Virus record (IMG/VR): IMGVR_UViG_3300020055_000040
Coordinates: 1 to 45,671 of that record
Source of the DNA: a virus
Strand: one strand, 5' to 3'
Length of the DNA stretch: 45,671 nt
Each line of letters begins with the position of its first letter. Position 1 is the stretch's first letter. The position numbers were made by a program, and so were the translations under genes. Shown here in pieces: positions 1,774-45,671 of this stretch. The notes under the pieces were generated by a model. It ran no database searches, was not told where the DNA came from, and saw only the letters and a program-made list of their open reading frames with translations.

Positions 1774-4700
1774 TCAAGCAATTTTAAATAACCATTCAGC
1801 AAATGTTTTGCCTAGAATTCTACCGAACTCACTGGTATATTTAGGGAAGACAGAAACACTATTTGGTCGAGCAAACCCTACATACTCATTAGTGAAAGTG
1901 GTGACATTATTAAATCCGGTAGATAAAGTAATTACACTTCCTGCTATATTGTTAATGGTAGCACCAGGAGCAATACCCTCACCATAAACACCAACTGTAT
2001 CAGCACCTAAACTACCAACTAGAGCAGTTAAATCACTAAAGTCTTGCCCACCAGCGATAGTAATTGTGTTTTGATTTACCGTTCCACTACAAAGTAATGG
2101 GAATCCTAACTGGAAGAATATAGCACCACCAGTTTCTCTAGCAAGACTTACATGGTCCCAACCAACAACATCAGCAGTAAGTTGCAACTGACCTGATATA
2201 GCAGTTGGGTCTAAAATATAATCTTCTGCACTTGGTTGAGTTGCCGGATTAACACCATCAGGAGTAAATTCTGTTGTGAGTGGACTAACTGTTGCGCTAC
2301 TAACAGTAGGATTTTCATCTGGATATATTTTAAGTGTTTGATTCGTAAATGGAACAAGTAAATCACTATCTACACCAATCACATAACCATCTACTCCTCC
2401 TATACTGTATGGAGTTACATCGATAATCAGTGTTCCAGCAGAGAATACATTTCCTGAACCACCATCAGTTTCAATTTCAGCACCTACTTGAGGGATGCCT
2501 CCTGTTACATCTCTTACCCTAACACTTCTACCTCCAGCTTGGTTATCTTCAAATGTAAAAGTGTTTGCTGAGTTCAATGCTTGTGTATGTACTTTATCAA
2601 CCACAGCAAAAGCTTTAATTCCTGGATTATTTGGATCATCCCAAGAGACAACTTTCAAAACTTTAGCATTTGTTCCTATTCCGGTTCCACTAACAGTTTG
2701 TCCAGCAACCACATTATCTGCCCCTGGGAAAGTTCCTGTGTTTGCTAAAGCAATAGCACCATATTCTTGTTGCCCACCAGGAACTGTAATAGGTACACCA
2801 GCTTGGAATAAACATTGAGTGTTTCCTCCACCAATATTACCAGTAAGATTTTGACTAATTTCTATAAGTCCCTGACTAGCTAAAAGTGTAGTATCTGTTA
2901 TATAACTTCCTACTGGTATTGCGGAAAGGTTATTGCTGGGATCAACTAACATACCTTCGATGAGGTCCCCATCAAATCCTGTGCGATTATTTCTATTTCT
3001 TATTTCTATAATATTAGTACCGCTATTTCCATTAATTGCTTTGGATACTTGGTTGTGATCTGTAGTACCACTAATAATATCTTTTGTAAAAGTATCATTT
3101 GTTGTATCAGCAATACCAGAAATAGCAGGCAATGAATATGTAAAACTAGTTGGTGAAACAACGAATGCTAAAGTTTGGATACCATTATAGTCATTAGAAG
3201 ATACGCCATTAATTCTTATTGTGTCTCCAGCAACAAGTCCATGTGGAGTTAAACCACTCACATCAATTCTTGCCTCTTCTGTGGATCTATTATAAGTAGC
3301 ACCAACAATGCTTAGTGTAAATGAGATTGGACTACCAGAGCGTTGATTGGAAATTTGTAATCTTATTTGAGTAGCTTCCCCACCAGTTCTTTCATCATCA
3401 GTTGTTACCAAATAATATGCTTCATCCGGTTGAACCCCAGGAAATCCCTTAAGACCACTAAATTTAATTAAATTAGTAGCAACAGTTCCATCAAGATCTG
3501 TAAATGTGTCAAAATCACCGGTTCCAACATCAACAAATTTTTCTAGTCTTCCTAGTCCATCACCACCATCAGTAATGTCGCTGGTATCTCTTGGATCTCC
3601 ACCTGGAGCGGTACTATAATTAGTCTCATCTCTTCCAGCAGAATATACTTTATATCTGAATACTGTGCTACTTAATCTGAGACTGACTTCGTTATACTCA
3701 TTAGTTCCTGGTATGTACTCTTGCTCTCTTGTCGCGGTTAAACCAACCCCACCAACTTGATTGTTTCCATCAAATATCATATCAAAATAATTTCCTGGCC
3801 ACAGTCCGTGATCTACATTAGTGGTAACTTCAAATTCTAAAGTTTCTGGAAGATAATCTATATTTGTAAACACAACCGGATTTATATTATTTTTGCCCCT
3901 AGCAATAATCGCTAATTGGTTTGAGTTGGTGATATAAAAATCATGCTTAGGTCCATCAGTAACTTCATTACCGTCATTAGAAATTTGTTTAAAGTTAATA
4001 TCTCTAACTAAAAAATCTCTAGTTTTATCTGGTTCAATAAATTCACCTGGAACTGGATCTAAATTATCATCAACTAAAGGAACATTAACATTTGATGTAT
4101 TAACAAATACAATTCTAAAGAAATCTTTTGTGTATACTCCACCAAGAACTTTAGCAAATGGATTTGTAGCTTGTCCAGTTCCGGGAATGTGATTACCTAA
4201 GTTTCCTGATGGGAATGGACTTAGGTCATAAGTGAATTGATTTGACGCAGTAACAGTAATTTCAACATTACCCACATTTAATTCTTCGCCACCAACTCTT
4301 GTAAAATTCATTCCTGAAATTTGTACGTTCTCGCCACTAGTAAATTTGTGATCTGTTGAGGTAGTTACAGTAACAGTTGGTGATGCATATGAAACTGAAT
4401 CAATAAAAACAATTTTTGGATAAGATGGATTATTTGGAGTTACATTAATATTTAAAAATAGTTCATTTTTAAATGAAGCAAAAGTATCGTTAACAACATC
4501 TGGTGATACATTGAAGATTGTACCACCACTAATATATGTTCCTGGATCAACTGCTTGATCAAATTTTAATGTACTGCCATCTATAATTTCAGCAACTTTT
4601 CTCCCATTAAAACTACCTGCAGATGTAGTTGCCACTACACCTTCTACCAAAATATCAACTGTAGTTCTACCTAACGCTGGTACAAATCCATGTGGATCTA

Positions 4701-39573: not shown

Positions 39574-41364
39574 TTACTCTGCTATTGCAACAAAATTACT
39601 TTTTGCAATATCTAATTCTAGGTATTGCTCACGAAATGCAAAAATATCTTTTTTGTATGGTACAGTTCTAATTTCAATTTTGTTATCAATAAAAGAACCT
39701 TTAATGATTGTCAAATTATATAATTTAATTTCGCCTTCAAGGTAATTTACCTCTCCTGCATTATTATCCAATATAATTTCAGTACCATCAACGCCTATTC
39801 TATATAGTACCATTCTTCCATCGATATCCTTGACATAGACTGTAAAGTTTGGATATTCAGAAACCACAAATCCAGTAGATTGAACTGTGGCACCATCACA
39901 ATTTTTATCAAATTCATTTTGATAACAAATTTCATAATATGAAGTTGTGTTTAGCAATGGAACAAAATCTTTTCTTAGGATAATCTCAGTCTCATTAGAT
40001 TGGATTGCTTCATCAGTTCCATCAATAACACCATTAATTTTGCTGTATCTAAACTTACCACCAAACTTTTCTGTGTCTGATAGTTTTACATATTCAACTA
40101 TAGATTCAATAACAGCAGTTGCAATGTCTTGAGATGCTAGTGTTGTTAACACAGAAGAATAATAAATGTTAGATTTTAACTCAACATATAAAATTGATGG
40201 GTCTAATATTACAGGTCTAACAGATCCAACCATATATTCCTTTAATTGTCTCTCCAGTTCTTGCTTAACTGAATTTCCAATAATTGCACCTACTTTTGGT
40301 TTGATAACAAGTTTAACAACTCCATATTCAGGGGGAACTTCATCCTCCCCACCATATGAAATGATATCAGATACATTAGGATAAATTTTACTAATAATTG
40401 GTTTGAAGTCCTCTGAAGTTACCGCTCTATCTTGTGTGGCAAAATATTTGGGAGCAATGAACTTGATATCGTTAATAGATTCAATGTCAGCGCCACCAAA
40501 TGACTCTGTAACATTGGTTACGACAGTTGTATTAGGATATTGTGCTCCATTGGTATCAAACATCACTCCATTGAATCTGAACGTCTTGACGCCATTTGAT
40601 TCTGGACCAGCAGTAATCAAATAAGTAATTTCTAGATAATTTCCTGTACTTAATTTAGTACCAAACGTACCATCTCCAAAAATAATTTCATATTTCTCAT
40701 CATCTACTTCCTCAACAAAAAATACGTTAGACTGTCCATTTACATCAAGAATATTATCTGCTATTAGATATGGACGTTTTGAAGTTGTATTTTCATTGTC
40801 AAATACATTTACTCTAATGGTTGAAGTATCAAGTTGAGGATTACTTAAAATAATTCTATTTGGTTGTGTTTCATCGTATGTGAAGAACTCTCTTACTAAT
40901 GTTCCTTCATATACTTCAATATTGTTAAAATTAGCAACGCCAGAATTAACTGGAACGGTAACATCTTCTACAACAACATAGTTGTATAATACGTTATCAT
41001 AATTTGTAATAAAACCTGTCCCTTTTTGTAGAGTCAAAGAGGATGGTTTGATTTGTGATGTAACTGTAGTGGTAAAATCTAATATTGCTTTAGGGGAAAC
41101 TTTAGATCTTGGTCTGTACCCTAATTGTTTCGCAATCCTTACAACATTATCTCTAAGTGTTGCTGAATCAATAAAAAACTCATTCGCAACAAGATTTGTG
41201 TTAAATGCAGTATAGTAAGTATTATATGCTAAAACATCAAGAATATGACTGAGTGCAGAACCCTCAAAATCATAATCAGTGAAATCTGACTGAGTTCTCA
41301 AATATGTTTTGAGATTTTCTTTAATTTCTAAGTAATCTAGATTAGTAAGTTGAGAATACGGCAC
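39574..41364 (-). CDS. 6: Baseplate wedge protein gp6
   Basis: The 596-aa product (T4 gp6: 660) begins with SQLTNLDYLEIKENLKTYLR and contains DFEGSALSHILDVLAYNTYY, FFIDSATLRDNVVRIAKQLG and YRPRSK, the conserved N-terminal signature of T4 gp6 and the wider Baseplate_J family. The middle has VTSEDFKPIISKIYPNVSDI and GGEDEVPPEYGVVKLVI, typical of the J-like core domain. Translation begins at a GTG one base after the gp25 stop, with GGAGAG upstream. gp6 forms the ring of dimers that joins baseplate wedges in T4, bound to gp25 and gp7. Identification is firm. Confidence 0.92.
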   Translation of the reverse strand: MPYSQLTNLDYLEIKENLKTYLRTQSDFTDYDFEGSALSHILDVLAYNTYYTAFNTNLVANEFFIDSATLRDNVVRIAKQLGYRPRSKVSPKAILDFTTTVTSQIKPSSLTLQKGTGFITNYDNVLYNYVVVEDVTVPVNSGVANFNNIEVYEGTLVREFFTYDETQPNRIILSNPQLDTSTIRVNVFDNENTTSKRPYLIADNILDVNGQSNVFFVEEVDDEKYEIIFGDGTFGTKLSTGNYLEITYLITAGPESNGVKTFRFNGVMFDTNGAQYPNTTVVTNVTESFGGADIESINDIKFIAPKYFATQDRAVTSEDFKPIISKIYPNVSDIISYGGEDEVPPEYGVVKLVIKPKVGAIIGNSVKQELERQLKEYMVGSVRPVILDPSILYVELKSNIYYSSVLTTLASQDIATAVIESIVEYVKLSDTEKFGGKFRYSKINGVIDGTDEAIQSNETEIILRKDFVPLLNTTSYYEICYQNEFDKNCDGATVQSTGFVVSEYPNFTVYVKDIDGRMVLYRIGVDGTEIILDNNAGEVNYLEGEIKLYNLTIIKGSFIDNKIEIRTVPYKKDIFAFREQYLELDIAKSNFVAIAE

Positions 41365-41365
41365 T

Positions 41366-41755
41366 TTATAGTCTCTCCAAGAATAGGTCTATATTGGTAG
41401 GTACATCCTCTCTACCAACAACAATGAAGTCAATTCTTACATCAAATCCATCCAATGATTGATTTGTGGATACTTCTATAGATTTAATAGAAACTCTTGG
41501 TTCGTAACTTGTAATTACATCTATTATTTCATCTCTAATTAATCCTGCAGTTATCTCACTTAATGGTTCAAATAATAGATTAATTAGATTTGTACCTAAT
41601 TGTGAATCAAATAATCTTTCCCCACGTCGGGTGTATAACAAATTCAATAGAGATTGTCTAATTGCAGATACATCTTTCTTTGTCGCAACATCCCCAGTGA
41701 CAGGATGAGGCTTAAAAGCAATACTCAGATCTTTGAATGTCTGAAATGTGGGCAC
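41366..41755 (-). CDS. 25: Baseplate wedge protein gp25
   Basis: The 129-aa protein is the usual length for gp25 (T4: 132). It carries the family signature: KKDVSAIRQSLLNLLYTRRG, ERLFDSQLGTNLINLLFEP and YEPRVSIKSIEV, where the EPR loop is conserved across GpW/gp25 proteins and equivalent type VI secretion TssE. In T4 it binds gp6 and starts sheath assembly. The start is a GTG (41753-41755); no ATG lies upstream in frame before the preceding gene. A GATAAATA late box is 25 bases upstream. The gp6 GTG follows its stop by one base. Confidence 0.92.
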   Translation of the reverse strand: MPTFQTFKDLSIAFKPHPVTGDVATKKDVSAIRQSLLNLLYTRRGERLFDSQLGTNLINLLFEPLSEITAGLIRDEIIDVITSYEPRVSIKSIEVSTNQSLDGFDVRIDFIVVGREDVPTNIDLFLERL

Positions 41756-42402: not shown

Positions 42403-42559
42403 AACGTGTTTCAATCTCCAATCCGGGGTTCATACCTGTTTCATAAAAATCATTTGCTGCATCTTCAATTTGATCTGCAAATTCATTAAAATCATCAAAA
42501 CGTTGCTCTTTTAACGTTCCGTCTTTTGTTTTATATGTAATTTTTTGATAGTCGCTCAT
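42335..42559 (-). CDS. Small acidic protein, 74 aa
   Basis: The ATG overlaps the stop of the PAAR-like gene (ATGA), which supports the start. The protein begins MSDYQKITYKTKDGTLKEQR and has an acidic helical middle (DDFNEFADQIEDAANDFYET) then ALEIETRY-like beta sequence (PGLEIETRYGNITRKES). This pattern is familiar to me from small hypothetical proteins of T4-like cyanophages. Its last 22 codons overlap the following coiled-coil gene. Function unknown; because of coupling to the spike-tip gene, a role in tail assembly is possible. Confidence 0.7.
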   Translation of the reverse strand: MSDYQKITYKTKDGTLKEQRFDDFNEFADQIEDAANDFYETGMNPGLEIETRYGNITRKESITGGIGSPEFLRD

Positions 42560-42936
42560 GGTACTTTAAAATTAGCTAACCTATTTGGAGTATTTAGTGA
42601 TCCCGCCCCACAAATTACATTCGTTGTCGCTAGTCCGGCAACAATTCCAGTTGGAATTCCTAATGATGTTAATACACTTGTACCCTGTAAAGCAACTGGC
42701 GTACCATTTACTAGTACAGTTGGAAAACCTGTTGAAATAATATCCGGATGTGGAATAAAAGGAAGAGTTGGACAAGAATGAATAATTGTTGAATCTCCTA
42801 CTTTATGTACTAATGATGAATTCATTAATACATTAGGTGATGCTCCTAAAGGTGGTGGTAGATAACCTACAGGTGGCCAACATTGATGTCCAGTTGTGAG
42901 ATCACTCGGATTGTATAATGCAGGTCGTAATCCCAT
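42556..42936 (-). CDS. 5.4: PAAR-motif baseplate spike-tip protein (T4 gp5.4-like)
   Basis: The 126-aa protein has the small repeated beta-turn pattern of PAAR-domain tips: SPNVLMNSSLVHKVGDS, then HSCP near a Pro-rich loop with HPDI, then FPTVLVNGTPVALQGT, and a Cys near the C-terminus (NVICGAGS). The two His and two Cys residues are fit to bind a metal at the tip, as known for PAAR proteins capping the T4 gp5 spike and type VI secretion VgrG. Its ATG shares one base with the TAA of the 404-aa gene, and its stop overlaps the next ATG. The gp5.4 symbol is by analogy. The call is fairly sure, but the exact metal ligands are inference. Confidence 0.75.
   Translation of the reverse strand: MGLRPALYNPSDLTTGHQCWPPVGYLPPPLGASPNVLMNSSLVHKVGDSTIIHSCPTLPFIPHPDIISTGFPTVLVNGTPVALQGTSVLTSLGIPTGIVAGLATTNVICGAGSLNTPNRLANFKVP
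42591..42597 (-). promoter_or_regulatory. Possible variant late box CTAAATA
   Basis: The minus strand reads CTAAATA, 32 bases before the ATG of the 74-aa gene and inside the PAAR-like gene. It is the same variant heptamer, at similar spacing, as before the fibre gene and the 123-aa gene. Confidence 0.25.
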
Positions 42937-44150
42937 TAGATGCCCTCCATTTCTCTAAGATCTTGCAACTTTTGCTCGAATGTTTGACGTAACTCCTCAT
43001 TATATGTATTAAAATCAGTGATATCAGTAAAACATTCAGATTGTAAAGTATCATCTGGTGCTGGTTGTTTTACTTCAGATAAATTCTCAAATTCACGACT
43101 TGTACATCCACCTACTAATTGTTGGGAACATATTAATTTAAATATACTTAATATATCATGTTGTGCATCTACAGTCATATGACATAGATATGGATAGTTT
43201 TCTAGTATAACTGGAGGCGGTGGTTCGAAAAATGGCGGAAACGGTTTATACTGTTTATAAAATGCTGTCTGTATATTGACAACATAATAAAACCTTAATG
43301 CTCGGATTTCGGTAGGTTTATACGATAATATCTGGTCGGCACAACGGATATATGGTAACATTACATCCTCGGCACAACCTGCAGTAATTAAATTACTACT
43401 AAACCATGTAAATGGTGTAATTCCCGATGGCTGGAATTGATTTATACTTAACTCGTCCAAAGGGAATTGCTCCCTACCTGGTTTCCATGGTTTCGTAAAT
43501 CTTCCAAATGAATTATACTTCGCAATTACATCACGCTCTTGTAATATCCATTGCCTATCCCAAAAATTCCTGTCAGTGTAATAACCATTAATTCTGGAAG
43601 TGAATAGCGGATATCCGTTACCAGTTCCAGCTGGTGTTTGACTTACAGGTGATGGAAGTGCCGGGGGTTGTACGTTACTAGTTGTTATGAATGGTTCAAT
43701 AAACAATCCAGGAGCCCACCATGGACTAATACCAACTCGCAAAAATTTCCCTAATGACCTTAAAGTTTCTTGTATACTCTCTTTGCTAGGTAACGGATCC
43801 TCTAACATACATGCTATAGGACCCTCTACATCTACATTCAATATATAATGACCACCTGGTCCATATACCGGATGTGTGCCTAATACGTTCCATAATGGTA
43901 TGGACTGGAAATCAAATTGACATGTGTCATACGGCGAAATATATTTGGGTATAACATCACTTCCAAAATTACCACCCCCAAAACTTTCCAGCATGTCTTT
44001 GATTATGGGATTTAATGGTGGAATTACCGGTTTGAACTCAAATAATCCTGCCGGTATTGAACTTATCTCAGGTTTTGCAGCTAGTCGAATTGCCGTCTCT
44101 GGTAACGGATAAAATCCTGTGGTTACTCCATTTGGTACAATAATTCCCAT
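42936..44150 (-). CDS. Unknown protein coupled to the PAAR tip gene, 404 aa
   Basis: This 404-aa protein begins MGIIVPNGVTTGFYPLPETA. It is rich in Pro and aromatic residues, with poly-proline stretches (FEPPPPVILENYP) and about nine cysteines. It has no signal peptide or clear membrane helix. The C-terminal 50 residues (TYNEELRQTFEQKLQDLREM) are a charged helix. It is the first gene after a late promoter, and its stop codon shares a base with the PAAR-like gene's start, so it probably works with the spike: a hub adaptor, spike partner or delivered cargo are the options. I do not recognise a family. The leader has no strong Shine-Dalgarno. Confidence 0.75.
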   Translation of the reverse strand: MGIIVPNGVTTGFYPLPETAIRLAAKPEISSIPAGLFEFKPVIPPLNPIIKDMLESFGGGNFGSDVIPKYISPYDTCQFDFQSIPLWNVLGTHPVYGPGGHYILNVDVEGPIACMLEDPLPSKESIQETLRSLGKFLRVGISPWWAPGLFIEPFITTSNVQPPALPSPVSQTPAGTGNGYPLFTSRINGYYTDRNFWDRQWILQERDVIAKYNSFGRFTKPWKPGREQFPLDELSINQFQPSGITPFTWFSSNLITAGCAEDVMLPYIRCADQILSYKPTEIRALRFYYVVNIQTAFYKQYKPFPPFFEPPPPVILENYPYLCHMTVDAQHDILSIFKLICSQQLVGGCTSREFENLSEVKQPAPDDTLQSECFTDITDFNTYNEELRQTFEQKLQDLREMEGI

Positions 44151-44200: not shown

Positions 44201-44208
44201 TATTTATC
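44201..44208 (-). promoter_or_regulatory. Late promoter GATAAATA before the 404-aa gene
   Basis: GATAAATA on the minus strand lies 51 bases before the ATG of the 404-aa gene, in intergenic DNA that follows a terminator. It fits the NATAAATA late consensus and marks the switch from the small-gene cassette to the structural region. Confidence 0.7.
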
Positions 44209-44284
44209 GCTCGTTTGGATACTTTTGTAGGTTAGAAAGTGCTAGATGGGACCCGTTCGCCCGGCCGCGCCAATATAACAAATA
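44209..44284. other. Non-coding spacer with a GC-rich patch
   Basis: Between the terminator and the late promoter there is no credible gene. Bases 44249-44272 (starting GGGACCCGTTCGCCCGG and ending CCGCGCC) are nearly all G and C, in sharp contrast to the AT-rich surroundings. I see no tRNA cloverleaf. It may be a junction scar between the two gene blocks. Confidence 0.5.
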
Positions 44285-44305
44285 AGGGGCAAATTAACTG
44301 CCCCT
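44285..44305 (-). terminator. Intrinsic terminator after the HicA-like gene
   Basis: AGGGGC and GCCCCT form a 6-bp GC-rich stem with a nine-base loop; on the minus strand TTATTTGTTATATT follows. It ends the right-hand small-gene cassette. Confidence 0.7.
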
Positions 44306-44320
44306 CAGTGTTAATTAGTG
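44306..44320 (-). repeat. Copy of the CACTAA-TAACAC element
   Basis: The minus strand reads CACTAATTAACACTG, just before the terminator stem. It is a one-base variant of the CACTAACTAACACTCA element found twice at 44975-45015. Confidence 0.6.
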
Positions 44321-44378
44321 ACCCTTCGTAAAGTGTAACTGTGCCTTGCGAGGTTTGACTGATTTAAGTTTGATAATC

Positions 44379-44549
44379 TTAAACTCTTTGTAACTGTCTT
44401 GCGATAAGTTTGCCTGTAAAGTCATTTTTAACTTTGTAGGGGATTGTGATGCTGTGCTCATGTTTTGTGAAGACATAGTGTGATCCACCGTTGCGTTTTT
44501 TAGTCCAACCTTGCAACTTAGCAAGTTTGAATAGTTGTTTAGTTGTCAC
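44379..44549 (-). CDS. HicA-like (YcfA) mRNA interferase toxin homologue, 56 aa
   Basis: From a GTG at 44549 the frame encodes 56 residues: TTKQLFKLAKLQGW, then TKKRNGGSHYVFTKHEHS, then ITIPYKVKNDFTGKLIARQL. This follows the whole HicA pattern: an N-terminal helix ending in GW or GF, the GSHHxF-type strand with the catalytic His (here His24), TxPxH/K, and a final helix with LxRQL. HicA proteins are 55-65-aa double-stranded-RNA-binding-fold RNases that cut mRNA. The GTG overlaps the stop of the 66-aa gene (GTGA), so translation is coupled. No HicB antitoxin is visible next to it. A terminator follows about 70 bases later. An unrelated longer frame covers the same DNA but shows no family features. 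Confidence 0.72.
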   Translation of the reverse strand: MTTKQLFKLAKLQGWTKKRNGGSHYVFTKHEHSITIPYKVKNDFTGKLIARQLQRV

Positions 44550-44746
44550 ACGATTTCTGGTGAAACAATACGCTTAGCACCGGGTGCGTGAGTGTAACGA
44601 TTGCGGTCAGGATTAACGTGCCCTTCGTAACCATTGACAGACTTACGTTCTGCCGCTGCCTGTACATAAGCAGGCAACGCAATGTTCATCTCATGATGCA
44701 CATATTGAGTGCGCTTAGTGATAAGTGAGGATGCGAGGCGATACAT
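44546..44746 (-). CDS. Unknown protein coupled to the HicA-like gene, 66 aa
   Basis: The frame starts at an ATG (44746) and stops at 44546, overlapping the HicA-like GTG. The product (MYRLASSLITKRTQYVHHEM, IALPAYVQAAAERKSVNG, then basic VNPDRNRYTHAPGAKR) is basic and probably soluble. It lacks the features of HicB antitoxins (no partial RNase-H-like strand pattern and no helix-turn-helix). The leader has no Shine-Dalgarno but carries one copy of the TAACACT repeat element about 30 bases upstream. It could be a non-canonical partner of the HicA-like protein or simply a neighbour. Confidence 0.6.
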   Translation of the reverse strand: MYRLASSLITKRTQYVHHEMNIALPAYVQAAAERKSVNGYEGHVNPDRNRYTHAPGAKRIVSPEIV

Positions 44747-44773: not shown

Positions 44774-44788
44774 TAGTGTTAATCAGTG
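44774..44788 (-). repeat. Copy of the CACTAA-TAACAC element
   Basis: The minus strand reads CACTGATTAACACTA, containing the TGA stop of the 63-aa gene and forming the start of the leader of the 66-aa gene. Confidence 0.6.
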
Positions 44789-44974
44789 GCGATCGCTAAT
44801 GTTAAACGAACCCCAAGAAACATTAGGGGCAGGAATACGCCCCTCACGAATTGCCTTGTTACGTTGTGCCTCACGTTGCAACTGTTCAATGTAAGATTTC
44901 ATGACAGATTGGCAGAGGTCATCGTTAGCGGCAGTGTCGTTAACGTAGAAGCAACCGTTGTGAACTTTTTTCAT
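44783..44974 (-). CDS. Unknown small protein, 63 aa
   Basis: The ATG at 44974 directly follows a copy of the 16-base repeat, without a Shine-Dalgarno. The product starts MKKVHNGCFYVNDTAANDDL and has a charged helix (KSYIEQLQREAQRNKAIREG), ending in IPAPNVSWGSFNISDRH. It is soluble and has two cysteines, with no family I can name. The last codons and stop lie in another copy of the repeat element and a GCGATCGC site. It belongs to the small-gene cassette, which is likely expressed early. Confidence 0.6.
   Translation of the reverse strand: MKKVHNGCFYVNDTAANDDLCQSVMKSYIEQLQREAQRNKAIREGRIPAPNVSWGSFNISDRH
44789..44796. other. HIP1 palindrome GCGATCGC
   Basis: This is the octamer that is heavily over-represented in many cyanobacterial chromosomes. 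It lies at the 3' end of the 63-aa gene. Confidence 0.8.
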
Positions 44975-45242: not shown

Positions 45243-45464
45243 CTAACGCCAGGCATTTCTGTTCACAAACTCACCGGGAGTTTGCCTCATCGGGCGACAG
45301 GTAATATTCTGCCAGGTGTAACGTAAGATTGCACGTCGTGAGACATGCTTGAACGTATATTCTTTCAGTGGAGAGTTAAACCAACGGACTGCAATCCTAC
45401 CCCTGATAGGTGATACTTTGAGAGTCCAGATTGAAGCAGAATCGTTACAGTTGAGAGTGAGCAT
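45243..45464 (-). CDS. KTSC-like small protein, 73 aa
   Basis: I place the start at the ATG at 45464 (MLTLNCNDSASIWTLKVSP). An earlier ATG at 45506 overlaps the upstream stop (TGATG) and would add 14 residues, but those come from a copy of the intergenic repeat element. The body has the strand pattern of KTSC domains: SASIWTLKVS, IAVRWFNSPLKEYTFKHV, SRRAILRY, then PGEFVNRNAW, where the last phrase matches the usual GxFxNxxI end. KTSC proteins are small beta-domains of unknown function found in phages and bacteria. It lacks the name-giving Lys-Thr-Ser-Cys, so the call is tentative. Confidence 0.55.
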   Translation of the reverse strand: MLTLNCNDSASIWTLKVSPIRGRIAVRWFNSPLKEYTFKHVSRRAILRYTWQNITCRPMRQTPGEFVNRNAWR

Positions 45465-45478
45465 GTAGTGAAGAAAAA

Positions 45479-45490
45479 TGTTAGTTAACG
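45479..45490 (-). repeat. Partial copy of the TAACTAACA element
   Basis: The minus strand reads CGTTAACTAACA, between the stop of the ArdA-like gene and the preferred ATG of the KTSC-like gene. The following TTCTTCACTA also matches the DNA between the two full copies at 44975-45015. Confidence 0.5.
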
Positions 45491-45505
45491 TGGTGCCCGA
45501 AGGCA

Positions 45506-45671
45506 TCAGTTATCAGCAAAGATATGCCAGGGGCAGTAAGTGCCACCGTCAGAACATGCAGTGAAATCGTAATACAATGCGCTGTCCCAAGTTGCTTCCC
45601 AATCAACAACAATAGCGGAAGGAATATCTAGGCACATGGTGTTAGTGTAAAATTCCTCTGCAAAGTCAGCG
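45506..45671 (-). CDS. ArdA-like antirestriction protein, C-terminal fragment
   Basis: The last 54 codons of a gene that enters from the right edge are visible. They read ADFAEEFYTNTMC, then IPSAIVVDWEATWDSALYYD, then FTACSDGGTYCPWHIFADN, with a TGA at 45506. ArdA proteins, which mimic DNA and block type I restriction enzymes, end with a similar pattern: FAEE, IP followed by (I/V)DWEA or DYEA, LxYDF or LxYDY, and HxFxN. The fragment is acidic, as expected for a DNA mimic. The N-terminal two thirds lie outside the window, so this remains a likely but unproven call. Confidence 0.5.
   Translation of the reverse strand, partial: ADFAEEFYTNTMCLDIPSAIVVDWEATWDSALYYDFTACSDGGTYCPWHIFADN

Follow-up and report, generated by a model that had tools for sequence, protein, structure and literature searches.

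The window analyzed here, a 45,671-nucleotide stretch of viral DNA, carries near its end a 56-codon gene for a HicA-family protein (44379..44549, minus strand), which starts with GTG and which we call type I cyanophage HicA. The gene before it encodes 66 amino acids (44546..44746, minus strand), and its TGA stop codon overlaps the HicA start by 4 nucleotides (GTGA), as the initial annotation had stated. HicA is the 3'-most gene in a unit of small genes, ahead of structural and baseplate genes, and the order is the same across the IMG/VR loci that we collected. The unit includes a 63-amino-acid gene (44783..44974, minus strand; phrog_14769, E = 7.5e-17; sequence ...NISDRH), whose homologs are found near HicA in many loci. 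Another small gene, of 87 amino acids (45243..45506, minus strand), matches phrog_7365; a homolog of this family directly overlaps the start of HicA in two other loci (L021 and L050), illustrating how genes are shuffled here.

On the other side, 71 nt after HicA, is a hairpin with a T-rich tail that resembles an intrinsic terminator (TGAGGGGCAGTTAATTTGCCCCTTA, 44283..44307, minus strand). Of the 50 type I loci that we scanned, 32 have a similar hairpin no more than 330 nt past HicA, and all of the close relatives are among them. Next is ATAAATA, a late-promoter-like motif before the structural genes (44201..44207, minus strand); TAAATA is found 3' of HicA in most of the loci scanned. The downstream structural module begins with a 404-amino-acid gene (42936..44150, minus strand), whose homologs follow HicA in relatives. 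The syntenic anchors are a PAAR-motif protein (42556..42936, minus strand; phrog_281, E = 1.9e-15; PF05488, E = 8.6e-6) and T4-like baseplate wedge genes (39574..41755, minus strand; phrog_261, E = 5e-46; phrog_219, E = 3.8e-190), namely, a gp25-like gene (41366-41755, minus strand) and a gp6-like gene (39574-41364, minus strand). Four giant ORFs on the minus strand (2302, 2918, 2733, and 3654 amino acids; 1774-39567), presumably structural, fill most of the window.

The 56-codon frame encodes a HicA-family protein

We confirmed that the GTG frame encodes a genuine HicA-family protein, beyond chance. The initial annotation had recognized a HicA pattern in this frame by eye, and profile searches, the predicted fold, and the key residues all agree with it. 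The protein matches HicA_toxin from Pfam (PF07927) with E = 4.3e-5 and 24 bits, which is slightly below the gathering score of 27 bits, but all 30 of the aligned family members match this model (best E = 1.3e-8). It also matches phrog_353, which is described as "toxin" (E = 2.9e-9), and the HicA structure 5yrz (E = 0.007 with the single sequence and 4.1e-6 with a family profile). A search of NCBIfam gave no match for HicA or for the 66-amino-acid protein.

From the family alignment, AlphaFold2 predicted with confidence (pLDDT of 87.8) the dsRBD-like fold of HicA, with helix 3-12, strands 16-21, 24-29, and 32-37, and helix 43-55 (alpha-beta-beta-beta-alpha). The top six matches to this model in the PDB were 4p78, 5yrz, 6g26 (two chains), 4c26, and 1whz: five of these are HicA chains, and 1whz is a HicA-family protein. 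The protein also carries G14, G22, and H24, positions that were studied in the HicA of Burkholderia, in which the substitutions G22C and H24A eliminate toxicity (PMC3969222). H24 is invariant in all 30 aligned relatives. At position 22, most of them have G or S; many have S, and the window has G.

A HicA-derived protein that binds RNA without cleaving it, and so regulates phage or host RNA, would leave a similar picture: the predicted fold is dsRBD-like, the protein is short (56 amino acids), and position 22 varies. However, an invariant H24 is not expected if catalysis had been lost, and we consider an inactive protein to be very unlikely.

The gene had also been described as hidden, which holds for some genomes and not for others. 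It is not annotated in the cyanophages S-RSM4 or S-WAM2, but in S-H9-1 (NC_070961) it carries the annotation "toxin," and in S-B43 the annotation "polyprotein." Being short, it was overlooked in the annotation of some reference genomes. Among the papers searched, none described this family of cyanophage genes.

The longer overlapping frame is not a gene

HicA is masked by a longer ORF in another frame, of 69 amino acids (44315..44524, minus strand). If this ORF were the real gene, then the 56-codon frame would be open by chance. In favor of this, the ORF is longer and is also open in near-identical relatives. However, those are the only relatives that contain it, and it has no family match in Pfam or PHROG. 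We compared substitutions using six close relatives from IMG/VR, of which five have a full-length gene and were compared along with the window. Among these, HicA has dN of 0-0.03 and dS of 0.06-0.50, and nearly all of the differences are at third codon positions; if the same differences are read in the 69-codon frame, nearly all of them are replacements. For example, between the window and its relative L003, the shared stretch has five silent changes and no replacements in the HicA frame and has no silent changes and five replacements in the 69-codon frame. Thus, the longer ORF is spurious, as the initial annotation had supposed. The substitutions, the family matches, and the fold all favor the 56-codon frame, and we regard the 69-codon frame as practically eliminated. 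Far from being lost in relatives while the overlapping frame is conserved, the HicA frame is under purifying selection. Its start is at the same site in the window and the five close relatives, as GTG in four and as ATG in two.

The 66-amino-acid gene is also under purifying selection (dN < dS), although more weakly than HicA: between the window and L003, 12 amino acids changed in the 66-amino-acid protein and none changed in HicA.

Type I HicA is an accessory gene at a conserved place

A profile search of IMG/VR identified 46 HicA loci, one of which (L056) was a false positive and was dropped. Overall, type I HicA is present in about 45 relatives, including S-RSM4, S-WAM2, S-B43, and S-H9-1, and always at the same place. 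Among isolated phages, we found this HicA in four, all of Synechococcus (7 records). In contrast, 217 cyanophage records contain DUF7249 (PF23907, also phrog_871), which is often the gene upstream of HicA in cyanophage loci. Therefore, HicA is accessory; and we rejected DUF7249 as a specific partner of HicA because it is found in so many records without it. In six loci (L014, L035, L036, L054, L017, and L026), an ORF for an HNH endonuclease directly follows HicA, which suggests homing activity there.

An accessory gene that is patchily distributed and sits among other small genes where turnover is high might act against competitors or host defenses, for instance by excluding superinfecting phages or by titrating a host HicB. 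A link between HicA domains and defense against phages has been reported (PMC10865869). However, when we scanned GTDB genomes with a single pattern from the HicA family, we found no relative of this subfamily, and we consider this role to be quite improbable.

The upstream neighbor of HicA is often exchanged

The initial annotation proposed that HicA and the 66-amino-acid gene form a translationally coupled pair. The overlap is present, but it is weak evidence for a pair. Among 43 loci with a readable upstream neighbor, the neighbor belongs to the 66-amino-acid or c17 group (see below) in 18, to DUF7249 in 18, to the family C52 in 4, and to phrog_7365 in 2, and it is an ORF of 58 amino acids in 1. 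In other phages, the stop of several of these unrelated ORFs overlaps or adjoins the start of HicA. On a tree of HicA, which was built from 58 columns and therefore leaves many forks unresolved, the label of the upstream neighbor changes at least 13 times, and well-supported branches force at least three gains or losses of the 66-amino-acid or c17 gene. Two loci (L023 and L024) have identical HicA proteins and different upstream neighbors. Because unrelated ORFs overlap the HicA start and the neighbors are swapped, the coupling seems to be a feature of the place rather than proof of a pair. Nor do HicA and the 66-amino-acid gene consistently travel together: the neighbor is often exchanged, and the HicA of isolated phages occurs without it.

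The 66-amino-acid protein is probably a diverged member of c17

The 66-amino-acid protein has no homolog in isolated phages and no significant match in Pfam or PHROG, and its AlphaFold2 model was uninformative (pLDDT of 52). The initial annotation called it unknown, but comparisons of profiles suggest that it is probably a remote homolog of c17, a family of small cyanophage proteins with the N-terminal motif [FY]xxASDLxTRxxxWV. A long subfamily of c17 also has the C-terminal motif YEGW..Y..NPEAKRISF. In hhalign, the family of the 66-amino-acid protein aligned to the long subfamily with a score of 28.5 over 60 columns (70% probability), while the best control scored 15.9. Similarly, when 2587 ORFs were searched with an HMM, the 66-amino-acid proteins ranked right behind c17 (E = 0.05-0.13), and the next unrelated protein had E = 3.9. 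The short form of c17 alone matched the 66-amino-acid protein weakly (5.7% probability); the long form, found in L017 and L084-L086, bridges the two. Once these loci linked it to c17, we no longer treated the 66-amino-acid protein as an isolated unknown.

We then gathered c17 loci by searching with c17 only, independently of HicA. Among 57 distinct c17 genes, 29 directly adjoin a HicA-like gene of one of three subfamilies, but part of this adjacency is due to shared gene order, for which the count carries no formal correction. One other locus has a HicA-like gene nearby that is not adjacent. Types I and II of HicA are mostly downstream of c17, and type III is upstream. Type II corresponds to phrog_2053 and to HicA-like proteins in PADLOC; type III corresponds to phrog_18430, which is described as "toxin." Type III precedes c17 in L070-L072, L075, L094, L120, and L124, and in several of these loci, an AbrB/MazE-like gene (PF04014, E = 5e-4) follows c17. 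The phage S-T4 (NC_048049, locus L081) has c17 overlapping an unannotated type II HicA-like ORF at 2992-3389 (phrog_2053; PADLOC HicA-like, E = 3.4e-8), and the record contains the pair twice (near 41-438 and near 171610-172007).

These associations raise the issue of whether the 66-amino-acid protein and c17 are antitoxins or regulators of HicA-like proteins that are unrelated to HicB, which would make a new kind of translationally coupled pair, with the antitoxin gene first. The resemblance of the 66-amino-acid protein to c17, the adjacency of c17 to three subfamilies of HicA-like genes, and the overlap of stop and start codons in S-T4 are consistent with this, and Class 2 hicBA modules typically have small upstream partners that overlap the toxin gene (PMC10865869). 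The association of c17 with HicA-like genes exceeds what is expected for a purely incidental neighbor. On the other hand, conserved gene order accounts for part of the adjacency, about half of the c17 genes have no HicA-like neighbor, and other gene families occupy the same place upstream of HicA. Four complete genomes (S-RSM4, S-B43, S-H9-1, and S-WAM2) contain HicA and no match to the 66-amino-acid protein or c17. Furthermore, profiles of c17 and of the 66-amino-acid protein did not match HicB or anything else relevant in the PDB, and single members have no family match in Pfam, NCBIfam, or PADLOC. Thus, the proposal of a new antitoxin is unsupported as an obligate pair, and we consider it unlikely. 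A looser arrangement seems rather unlikely as well: at a site of frequent gene turnover close to the baseplate genes, cyanophages would several times have combined the three HicA-like subfamilies with the 66-amino-acid protein or c17 as a non-HicB partner (an antitoxin or a regulator of activity), and where c17 is missing, another small neighbor, or none, would serve. Because c17 repeatedly adjoins HicA-like genes of three subfamilies, the 66-amino-acid protein stays a candidate for an optional partner.

HicB was not detected in relatives

HicA is familiar as the toxin half of a toxin-antitoxin pair. The initial annotation noted that HicB seemed to be missing. Because the window is a 45.7-kb fragment, the absence of HicB can be judged only via its relatives, and for these the claim stands: two Pfam models of HicB (PF15919 and PF05534), which a very diverged HicB could escape, matched nothing at E ≤ 0.1 in 16 records, four of which are complete phage genomes. 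Likewise, none of the genes neighboring HicA matched HicB. We found neither an adjacent hicB of the RNase H-like type nor a stable pair of two genes. The evidence places the protein in the HicA family but does not support a HicAB module.

A solo HicA is the most probable explanation

We propose that the gene encodes a solo HicA-type mRNA interferase, without HicB, that is carried by T4-like cyanophages as accessory cargo for taking over the host. We put the probability of this at roughly 55%. An orphan phage HicA was one of two suggestions in the initial annotation, and the identity of the protein, the hidden frame, and the absence of HicB all argue for it; RNase activity is inferred. HicA would be transcribed together with the small genes of its unit and may be translated by reinitiation at the overlapping GTG or ATG, which would hold its level low. 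The protein would then bind mRNA and cleave it through His24, so as to shut down or recycle host messages. A lasting antidote would not be needed in a lytic infection, and the preceding gene (here, the 66-amino-acid gene) would mainly be a neighbor for expression and would often be swapped. A solo RNase could also damage the phage's own mRNA.

Lytic cyanophages keep HicA under strong selection without a detectable HicB, which suggests that the toxin itself serves the takeover of the host. The HicA family and its c17 neighbors provide defined constructs for asking whether a phage toxin works without its antidote.

Comparison with known systems

Genomes commonly contain solo toxin genes (PMC2701414). 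Toxin-antitoxin pairs are present in some marine Synechococcus strains, and none were found in Prochlorococcus (PMC5498466). Compared to characterized members of the HicA toxin family (PF07927; 5yrz, 4p78, 6g26, and 4c26), the protein in the window was found without HicB, is at the short end, and has a borderline score.

In Class 2 hicBA modules, a small HicB is encoded upstream of HicA, and the genes overlap (Gerdes 2024, PMC10865869). An example is gp90-gp91 of the phage Adephagia (PMC11373665). The window is similar in that a small gene overlaps the start of a phage-borne hicA, but its upstream protein has no detectable similarity to HicB and is replaced by unrelated genes in relatives. The Planktothrix phage PaV-LD also shows that HicA can be found in a cyanobacterial phage; it has hicA and a real hicB (PMC6293099, PMC10865869), whereas we did not detect hicB in these T4-like cyanophages. 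A "HicA-like toxin" has been reported from the lytic Gordonia phage StarStruck (PMC9583778), which is unrelated; the HicA in the window belongs to phrog_353. The nearest counterparts are gp058 of S-H9-1 ("toxin") and its homologs in S-RSM4 and S-WAM2. These are 44-47% identical to the HicA in the window and have DUF7249 upstream instead of the 66-amino-acid gene, but they belong to the same family and lie at the same place before the structural genes.
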